In this document: piece after piece, positions 3,215 to 4,969 of the stretch
Layout of the letters: the number at the start of each line of letters is the position of its first letter
Numbering within the stretch: the first letter of the stretch is position 1
NCBI RefSeq assembly: GCF_000018865.1
Contig: NC_010175.1
Span: 1,798,001-1,862,000 of the forward strand
Origin: Chloroflexus aurantiacus J-10-fl
Lineage (GTDB): Bacteria > Chloroflexota > Chloroflexia > Chloroflexales > Chloroflexaceae
Direction: 5' to 3'
Length of the DNA: 64,000 nucleotides
Notes under the pieces: model-generated
The model's database searches: none
What the model saw: only the letters and a program-made list of their open reading frames with translations
What the model was told of the DNA's origin: nothing
Translations under genes and position numbers: made by a program

Positions 3215-3880
3215 TCATCCTCCAGCCTGTGCCAGCACGTGCTCCAATAGTGGCCGGGTGTGGGTCAGAGAGGCTGAACTGGCGATCAAGCGGTGCAGAT
3301 CAGTAAAGGTGTCGATGTCATACCAAAGGGGAAGGAGCGAGGTCTGAAGCCGCAGTTGTTCGGCAATCGCCAGCGTATCACGCAGTACGGTTGGCGTACT
3401 CATGGTGACGCCGGTGAAGAGGGTTGGTGCCGGTCGGCGCAACCCAACCAGATAGTAACCACCATCACTGGCCGGCCCCAGCACAAGATCGGCCCCTTGC
3501 GCTAATTCAGCAATAGCCTGTTCGATGAAGGCCACCGGCAAATCAGGGCTATCGCTCCCGATCACAACCACTGCCGGCGCGCCTTCGTTCAGGAGCGCAT
3601 CGGTGATGTTGGCCAGCCGTTCACCCAAATCAGCGCCAACCTGTGGCCGGTGGGCAAGGTCAGGGGCAAGGCGGGCAAAGTAATCGGCAGCGGTTTCCGG
3701 CGCATACGCGATGATCGGCTGCACCCCACGTACACTCCGCAACAACGCCGTCAAATCATAAAGAAACGCTTCGTACAGAGTAGTTGCCTGCTCTGGGGTC
3801 AAAGGCGGGCACAAACGGGTCTTAACCCGTCCCGGTTCAGGGCGACGGGCCATCATCACGAGCGCTGGATGCACGCTCAC
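3215..3880 (-). CDS. TIGR04282/DUF2064 glycosyltransferase-like protein
   Basis: About 221 residues with a nucleotide-sugar-transferase (GT-A/MobA-like) fold. The signature region is near the N-terminus (MMARRPEPGRVKTRL), with VVVIGSDSPDLP and GPASDGGYYLVGL further on, the order seen in TIGR04282 proteins. These often occur beside ArsS in arsenosugar loci, consistent with a sugar-transfer or sugar-activation role. I start at GTG 3880: its GTGA overlaps the stop reached if the upstream arsS UGA is read through, which implies translational coupling. A longer frame from 3928 would overlap arsS by 28 nt; a shorter start at ATG 3856 is also possible. Confidence 0.75.
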   Translation of the reverse strand: MSVHPALVMMARRPEPGRVKTRLCPPLTPEQATTLYEAFLYDLTALLRSVRGVQPIIAYAPETAADYFARLAPDLAHRPQVGADLGERLANITDALLNEGAPAVVVIGSDSPDLPVAFIEQAIAELAQGADLVLGPASDGGYYLVGLRRPAPTLFTGVTMSTPTVLRDTLAIAEQLRLQTSLLPLWYDIDTFTDLHRLIASSASLTHTRPLLEHVLAQAGG

Positions 3881-3903
3881 GGCGTGCCGATAGCGCCTGT
3901 TCA
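3877..3903 (-). other. Candidate selenocysteine UGA and C-terminal readthrough of arsS
   Basis: The arsS frame meets TGA at 3903-3901 right after the Cys-rich tail HCYACTAAAGST. Read through, it continues T-G-A-I-G-T-P to a second TGA at 3879-3877, which overlaps the next gene's GTG start as GTGA. As I recall the family, the tail reads A-G-S-S-(C/U)-x-G-A, so this UGA sits where Cys or Sec is expected. GC-rich inverted repeats follow (GGCG/CGCC and GAGCG/CGCTC) that could form a SECIS-like hairpin. Not proven: no selenocysteine machinery is visible in this window. Confidence 0.55.
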
Positions 3904-4923
3904 GGTGGAGCCGGCGGCTGCGGTGCATGCGTAACAGTGTGCTGCGGTGCGAATCTCGCGTCCGGCCAGATCGGCGATGGTCACATCGCGAATGGTCTGC
4001 GGCAACGCGAGATCGAGCATCTGATTGAAATCACAGTCGTAGAGTCGCCCATCCCAACCGACCGAGAGCGTGGTGCGACACATCAAGCCATTCACTGTCG
4101 CCGGGTTGAACGCCTGAACGAGTAGGTGCATGTATGCTTCCAGCTCGCCATTGGCCTGCAAGTGAGCCAGATAGCGGCTGATCGGCATGTTGGTGAGCGT
4201 ATACAGGCGATTGAAGACTATGCCATAACGGGTAGCCAGCTCTTGCCGCCAGCGTTGTTCGAGAGTTTCCTGCGCCTCCGGCAGATAAGGGCCGGTTGGA
4301 TTTGCGATCAGATTCAGCAGCAAACCGCTGCCCTCAATACCGTAGCCCAACGCATTGAGTTCGCGCAACGTTACCAGCGATTGCGCAAAGACTCCCTCAC
4401 CACGTTGACCATCGGTCGACTCCGGATCGGTAGTCGGCAACGATGCAATGATCTCGACCTGATGTTCGGTAAAAAATCGGGGCAGATAACGATAATTTGG
4501 CAGTTGGGCAATCGTCAGATTACAGCGGTCGATCACATGACAGCCCAGCGCACGTGCCTGACGAACAATCTCGGTAAATGCGGGATGCAGCTCCGGCGCA
4601 CCACCGGTAATGTCGAGCGTCGGAATCCGCCAACGTGCCAGCACATCCAGACAGGCGGCGACAATTTCCGGCGGCATCACCTCCTTGCGGTCGGGGCCGG
4701 CATCAACGTGACAATGATGACAGGTCTGATTACAGCGTCGTCCCACATTGATCTGCAAGACATCAATGCGCGACTCGGCCCGTAGCGGGGCCAGACCATA
4801 GGCCAGGAGTGTCTCATTGAAGGCAGGCACCGGCACCTGTGCCAGCACCTGTTGCTGGATCAGCGGATTGGCCAATGGATGTGCCTGCCGCTGCAACGTT
4901 TGAATCAACCGTTTTGATGGCAT
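3901..4923 (-). CDS. arsS: Arsenosugar-biosynthesis radical SAM (seleno)protein ArsS-like
   Basis: 340 residues to the first in-frame TGA, 348 if that codon is selenocysteine. The radical SAM cluster motif CNQTCHHC (C64, C68, C71) is followed by the family's HVDAGP segment. The C-terminal half is the Cys-rich DUF3641-type domain (MCRTTLSVGWDGRLYDCDFN, then HCYAC near the end). Family role: joining an adenosyl-derived sugar to methylated arsenic in arsenosugar biosynthesis. I start at ATG 4923 because AAGGAG lies 8 nt upstream; the longer frame to 4965 would begin inside the upstream palindrome. It is coupled to the TIGR04282 gene. No arsM methyltransferase is nearby. See the separate entry on its in-frame UGA. 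Confidence 0.8.
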   Translation of the reverse strand: MPSKRLIQTLQRQAHPLANPLIQQQVLAQVPVPAFNETLLAYGLAPLRAESRIDVLQINVGRRCNQTCHHCHVDAGPDRKEVMPPEIVAACLDVLARWRIPTLDITGGAPELHPAFTEIVRQARALGCHVIDRCNLTIAQLPNYRYLPRFFTEHQVEIIASLPTTDPESTDGQRGEGVFAQSLVTLRELNALGYGIEGSGLLLNLIANPTGPYLPEAQETLEQRWRQELATRYGIVFNRLYTLTNMPISRYLAHLQANGELEAYMHLLVQAFNPATVNGLMCRTTLSVGWDGRLYDCDFNQMLDLALPQTIRDVTIADLAGREIRTAAHCYACTAAAGST

Positions 4924-4931
4924 TTTTACTA

Positions 4932-4969
4932 CTCCTTGTATTAGAGAGTATACCATGCAATACAAGGAG
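4932..4969 (-). promoter_or_regulatory. arsS promoter enclosed by an 11-bp palindrome
   Basis: CTCCTTGTATT (4932-4942) and AATACAAGGAG (4959-4969) are perfect inverted repeats 16 nt apart. On the minus strand the spacer holds an extended -10 element (TGGTATACT). The arm nearer the gene contains the arsS ribosome-binding site (AAGGAG). A dimeric repressor could block transcription here, or the RNA could mask the ribosome-binding site by pairing. Confidence 0.5.

Follow-up and report, generated by a model that had tools for sequence, protein, structure and literature searches.

ArsS is already known as a family with selenocysteine (Sec) members. NCBIfam names its model TIGR04167 (rSAM_SeCys) 'arsenosugar biosynthesis radical SAM (seleno)protein ArsS', and in tables of PMC9312934 and PMC13188914 TIGR04167 appears among the selenoprotein families, with AAR34688.1 as a predicted selenoprotein, the latter table giving the motif GxxU; given this name and these listings, Sec in the family is not itself new. 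According to the review PMC12159101, which cites an Angew. Chem. 2021 paper on ArsS, arsenic is adenosylated by a radical SAM enzyme during the synthesis of oxo-arsenosugars. For bacterial SECIS elements, PMC13188914 gives a loop of 3-9 nt and a stem of 4-16 bp placed 16-37 nt after the UGA, with a minimum free energy (MFE) below -7.5. A table in PMC1794560 has 3 selenoproteins for Chloroflexi, and these may include some of the genes studied here; the C. aurantiacus genome paper (PMC3150298) contains no word beginning 'selen'. Among the papers listed by our literature search we found no description of a Chloroflexus ArsS selenoprotein, of a stop and start codon in the hairpin loop, or of the decayed gene in a related genome described below.

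The gene considered here lies in a 64,000-nt stretch of Chloroflexus aurantiacus J-10-fl DNA (the window), part of a single 5,258,541-bp contig. On the minus strand, arsS runs over 3877..4923, from an ATG at 4921-4923 to a second UGA at 3877..3879; a probable ribosome-binding site read from the sequence, AAGGAG (4932..4937, minus strand), precedes the ATG by 8 nt. An in-frame UGA at 3901..3903 (minus strand), residue 341, falls at the family's invariant Cys position and is the predicted Sec codon. The preliminary description had stated that reading through this codon adds T-G-A-I-G-T-P before a second UGA that overlaps the next gene in the letters GTGA, and the sequence bears this out: the tail codons are ACA GGC GCT ATC GGC ACG CCG (3880..3900, minus strand), and the read-through protein is 348 aa including Met. 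This protein resembles TIGR04167 in its radical SAM core, its Cys-rich DUF3641 domain, its C-terminal GxxU/C motif and its full-length match above cut-off. Domain scores are 40.5 bits for PF04055 and 177.9 bits for PF12345, and the Cys residues of the radical SAM CxxxCxxC motif (C63, C67 and C70) show no change in any of the 47 rows of the alignment described below.

One might object that the UGA at residue 341 is an ordinary stop, that ArsS ends at Thr340, its final Cys having been lost, and that the tail is just a short intergenic stretch. TGA does end more of the window's ORFs than any other stop codon (19 of 36 with at least 200 aa), and a standard-code gene caller would be expected to end the gene here. 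However, two profiles extend past the codon. TIGR04167 scores 426.5 bits (cut-off 300) and reaches position 303/303 on the protein with its tail, and scores 416.8 bits and ends at 298/303 on the protein without it; the DUF3641 match extends three residues beyond the UGA, and its last profile position is reached only past that codon.

Comparison with relatives also argues against an ordinary stop. Among 158 genomes of the class that were searched for the family, 14 have ArsS at E <= 1e-40, and the tail is readable in 13; the match in the fourteenth (G042) reaches only profile position 233. The codon at the UGA site is TGA in 12 of the 13 readable Chloroflexia orthologues and TGT (Cys) in the other, G017; TAA or TAG never occurs there. 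The 12 UGA orthologues span five genera, although these are related species and not 12 independent events. All 12 keep the first seven tail residues, with synonymous changes present; Gly at +2 and Pro at +7 are kept throughout, and the +2 Gly codon differs only at its third base (GGC, GGG or GGT). Relatives that end at the UGA without the tail, which would have spoken for an ordinary stop, were sought and not found among the 12 UGA orthologues (0/12). Taken with the Cys counterparts, Sec genes and covarying hairpin presented below, these observations leave an ordinary stop very improbable. The same 12 genomes bear on the idea of a sequencing error or pseudogene. A related genome, G004, does carry an arsS pseudogene, but both the TGA and the tail recur in 12 genomes, and the window copy has an otherwise intact frame with invariant motifs and a confident structure model (mean pLDDT 92.1), so that we consider this idea hardly credible.

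Two fragmentary cases were seen besides: two IMG/VR contigs filed as viral (L204 and L205) hold ArsS-like stretches matching only residues 20-176 and 2-136. A class search around G158 (three genomes) reported no stop inside an ArsS match.

Farther afield, the position is taken by Cys. The UGA had been proposed to stand exactly at the family's C-terminal Cys/Sec site, and distant ArsS proteins from other phyla agree, with Cys there in 80 of 80 (54 TGC, 26 TGT; the best 80 of 589 confirmed). In a 47-row alignment made up of six UGA rows, G017 and 40 of the 80 distant Cys forms, both the Cys/UGA column and the +2 Gly are invariant in 47/47 rows. The C-terminal motif is CTAAAGST-U-TGA in the window copy and CTA-A-(A/S)-GST-U-(T/S/A)G(A/T) across the 12 UGA forms; the 80 distant Cys forms (again the best 80 of 589 confirmed) mostly read CTAGAGSS-C-GGA, so that Chloroflexus differs in having GST-U where they mostly have GSS-C. 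A single genome scan for Sec-form ArsS outside Chloroflexia found none among the best 80 of 589 loci, all of which have Cys; AAR34688.1 is presumably a Geobacter-type Sec form.

The Cys found at this site in the other ArsS sequences examined counts against an ordinary stop, and equally gives some footing to a further idea, that a suppressor or near-cognate tRNA decodes the UGA as a different residue, Cys or Trp, with no involvement of the SelB pathway. The preliminary description had directed attention to selA, selB, selD and tRNA-Sec, and all four are present in the same genome as arsS, so that the proposal is not refuted on this count. The selA match scores 586.7 bits; selB scores 312.8 bits over model positions 2-351 and has a full-length frame of 616 aa. 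The tRNA-Sec scores 70.7 bits (gathering score 47) and is typed by ARAGORN as tRNA-SeC(tca), with anticodon TCA; two other tRNA-like places in the genome score 48.6 and 47.2 on the same model, so the gathering score is insufficient by itself. The selD gene has its own in-frame TGA at the CAG-U position, a second sign that this host decodes UGA as Sec. This complete pathway with its Sec-type tRNA(UCA) speaks against decoding as Cys or Trp, as it does against an ordinary stop.

The distribution of the UGA form among genomes points the same way. tRNA-Sec (E <= 1e-9) is found in 11 of the 12 UGA genomes and is absent only from the draft G041; a full-length selB relative occurs in 10 of the 12, with a C-terminal fragment only in G041 and none in the draft G018. 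selA is present in all seven of the 12 that were searched for it, and selD is above cut-off in five of these seven, the exceptions being G001 and G002. The Cys-form genome G017 has selA, and its selD, selB and tRNA-Sec were not found at the thresholds used. In G004, a single contig from the same genus as the window genome, selA is without a match, nothing for selD rises above cut-off, and the matches to selB are all elongation-factor-like; its arsS has decayed, with stops and gaps and with CGA at the UGA codon. The UGA form is thus absent (G017) or decayed (G004) where Sec genes were not found, which is against a read-through that inserts some other residue; with the hairpin described below at SECIS distance, we regard such a read-through as even less credible than an ordinary stop.

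Several further observations concern these genomes. G001 and G002 combine the UGA form with selA, selB and tRNA-Sec and lack a selD above cut-off, which may reflect a draft gap or another selenophosphate source. G004 retains a tRNA-Sec match of 70.9 bits (L052, L090), perhaps an orphan of a lost pathway, and the glycosyltransferase gene beside its arsS pseudogene is intact (69% identity over residues 1-216 of 221 by tblastn). Two other genomes of the genus, G005 and G006, have the Sec genes, and no arsS was found in them. The arsenite methyltransferase model NF008823 gave nothing at E <= 1e-30 in G000, G001, G002 and G007 despite their arsS, gave two partial matches in G003, and is present in the UGA-form relatives G010, G018, G044, G045, G047 and G056.

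The preliminary description had also placed a GC-rich hairpin just after the UGA. One is present, folding at -20.7 kcal/mol, with 7 of 200 shuffles folding equally well. In the fold of the window copy, the whole hairpin spans 3861..3897 (minus strand), with a lower stem of 3897-3892 paired to 3866-3861; within it lies a SECIS-like stem-loop at 3871..3887 (minus strand), whose 6-bp upper stem (3887-3882/3876-3871) closes the loop CGUGA (3881-3877). The loop starts 19 nt downstream of the UGA. This resembles described bacterial SECIS elements in its loop of 5 nt with a G in second place and a U after it, its 6-bp upper stem, its distance of 19 nt and an MFE in range; it differs in that the gene's own stop codon lies in the loop, as does, in Chloroflexus, the start codon of the gene that follows.

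Such resemblance is easily come by. Of the 2354 TGA triplets that the window has on its two strands, 1542 satisfy the generic bacterial SECIS rules with a stem of at least 4 bp and 470 with at least 6 bp, and we therefore discarded these rules as an uninformative test; a generic scan of the window copy also offers an alternative 9-bp stem with its loop 28 nt after the arsS UGA. A strict loop-plus-stem pattern picks out 1 of the 2354 TGAs, but is not an independent test since it was written after the arsS and selD hairpins were known. What lifts the hairpin above chance is that it is conserved and covaries between species. We aligned 11 orthologues (10 distinct) without gaps over 44 nt, leaving out G002, whose hairpin is shifted by 2 nt. 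In the upper stem 93.3% of cells are paired over the 10 distinct rows, and three of the six pairs have changed on both sides (GC/UA/AU, CG/UA and GC/CG/UA), the other three never varying. The covariation score is 0.400, against an average of 0.140 in shuffles and at most 0.167 in slid versions; 0 of 500 shuffles reach 0.400, and two of the five pairing measures are no better than in shuffles (pairs with changes on both sides, reached by 146/500; further pair types, by 235/500), these counts not being probabilities because the species are related. The lower stem is 68.3% paired and less regular across genera. A covarying stem is not what an ordinary stop would call for.

Energy folding does not favour the inner stem in all of the genomes. 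Across the 12 UGA genomes the thermodynamic z-scores of the hairpin lie between -2.8 and +0.6, and the inner-stem probability is at least 0.5 in 10 of the 12 at 44 and 60 nt and in 7 of the 12 at 75 nt; it stays at or below 0.03 at every length in G056 and at or below 0.36 in G047. The case for Sec rests on the codon, the tail and the machinery more than on folding energy. A covariance model built from the 11 arsS hairpins recovers the left-out G002 hairpin (E 4.4e-4), which has a 6-bp stem and the loop CGGGA, and matches the decayed G004 copy (E 6e-4) with two non-standard pairs; it matches the window copy by construction, the next matches in the window standing at E 0.045 and 0.054.

We considered a single SECIS family common to arsS and selD, and found no support for it beyond the loop letters: the covariance model found no selD hairpin in L081 or L084-L089, and so the shared letters CG[GU]G rest on inspection. 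In selD this stretch is also fixed by coding.

The loop sits on a gene boundary. The next gene (3215..3880, minus strand) encodes a TIGR04282 arsenosugar-biosynthesis glycosyltransferase (189.8 bits, cut-off 134), and its GTG start (3880-3878) lies within the hairpin loop, overlapping the second UGA of arsS by the 4 nt GTGA. The second UGA had been taken for the true end of arsS, on the ground that such overlaps are frequent in the window. Their frequency is a fair point: a mechanical count, with the arsS overlap left out, gives 4 candidate 4-nt overlaps among 19 close same-strand ORF pairs. The position of the second stop fits as well, and a TGA occurs at the equivalent place in 11 of the 12 UGA orthologues, being displaced further on in G002. 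What does not stand is the overlap as the reason for the second stop across the wider group. Inspected by eye, the five Chloroflexus genomes whose tail is readable (G000, G001, G002, G003 and G007) have the glycosyltransferase frame after arsS; in the other 7 of the 12 UGA genomes no frame starts at the GTGA, as judged from frames of more than 90 aa, and CCGTGAGCG is nevertheless unchanged. Since these seven genomes keep CCGTGAGCG without a frame of that length starting there, it seems to be the hairpin loop that constrains the second stop. The simplest reading would be that the CGUGA loop is retained on account of the recoding signal, its UGA doubling as the arsS stop, and that Chloroflexus additionally uses the GUG of the loop as a start.

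G002 offers a variant of this arrangement. At its locus (L104, ~1470-1515) the hairpin lies 2 nt further on, and its loop has the letters of the selD loops of L085 and L089; arsS runs on to REGVS. Here it seems that both the stop of arsS and the start of the following gene have shifted downstream together while the hairpin stayed.

We also entertain, as a doubtful proposal, that the stem-loop is a selenium-responsive switch between arsS and the glycosyltransferase gene: SelB on the loop, or early stopping at UGA341 when selenium is scarce, would alter initiation of the next gene. Were this true, selenium supply would set the ratio of two arsenosugar enzymes.

As to the origin of the Sec form, we built a tree from 95 sequences, each truncated immediately ahead of the codon. 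All 12 UGA rows fall into a single group (SH-aLRT 98); G017 is its sister (SH-aLRT 92, below the tool's mark of 95), and both lie inside Cys-only sequences; the tree is a quick one, made without bootstraps and containing no Sec form from outside Chloroflexia. As judged from these sequences, this topology fits a single Cys-to-Sec change in the family to which Chloroflexus belongs. The Cys form G017 and the UGA form G041 belong to the same genus and are not grouped on the tree, so that G017 may reflect a transfer or a mix-up in a draft genome.

The predicted protein suggests where Sec would act. SPASM/twitch radical SAM enzymes carry an auxiliary-cluster motif, CX(9-15)GX4C followed by CX2C. The Cys-rich domain of ArsS has C281, C296, C329 and C332 (numbered from Pro2) in the spacing C281-x9-G291-x4-C296 and C329-x2-C332, invariant in the 47-row alignment, and these four residues could hold an auxiliary Fe-S cluster. 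The best structural matches of the ArsS model are SkfB (Z 20.1, rmsd 3.1, 240 aligned), SuiB (Z 18.8, rmsd 3.8, 245 aligned) and BlsE (Z 18.3, rmsd 3.6, 257 aligned), which, like EpeE, we take to be SPASM/twitch enzymes; identity to these three matches is 13-18%. We know of no Sec tail in the SPASM/twitch families. In the model the last seven residues (341-347, the tail after Sec) are disordered, and Sec would sit on a flexible C-terminal tail beside the Cys-rich domain, in place of the Cys of other ArsS proteins. We infer a role for the selenol near arsenic or near the auxiliary cluster, and think that Sec on a mobile tail may act on arsenic, as nucleophile or reductant, more strongly than Cys would.

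We conclude that this arsS very probably encodes an arsenosugar-synthesis radical SAM enzyme in which Sec341 is inserted via SelB and the stem-loop, with the stop codon in the loop. What the analysis shows directly is the codon, the machinery, the conservation, the covariation and the family membership; Sec insertion itself and the binding of SelB to this hairpin are inferred. The earlier suggestion that ArsS is probably a selenoprotein is strengthened by the Sec genes of the genome, the kept tail, the Cys counterparts and the covarying hairpin. The ribosome would arrive at UGA341, where SelB with Sec-tRNA(UCA) would be bound to the stem-loop and Sec would be inserted; seven more residues would follow, with termination at the second UGA in the loop, overlapping the glycosyltransferase GUG. 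What we propose as new is the SECIS loop CGUGA carrying the arsS stop together with the Chloroflexus GUG start, along with what looks like a Cys-to-Sec change.

In practical terms, a standard-code gene caller would probably end ArsS one residue before its invariant C-terminal Cys/Sec, and expressing the shorter frame would give a protein without that residue. For the family, this clade seems to offer a compact example of Cys giving way to Sec along with a SECIS hairpin, with a decayed gene in a related genome where searches for selA, selB and selD did not find them; and the locus shows how a single RNA loop could act as recoding signal, stop and start.
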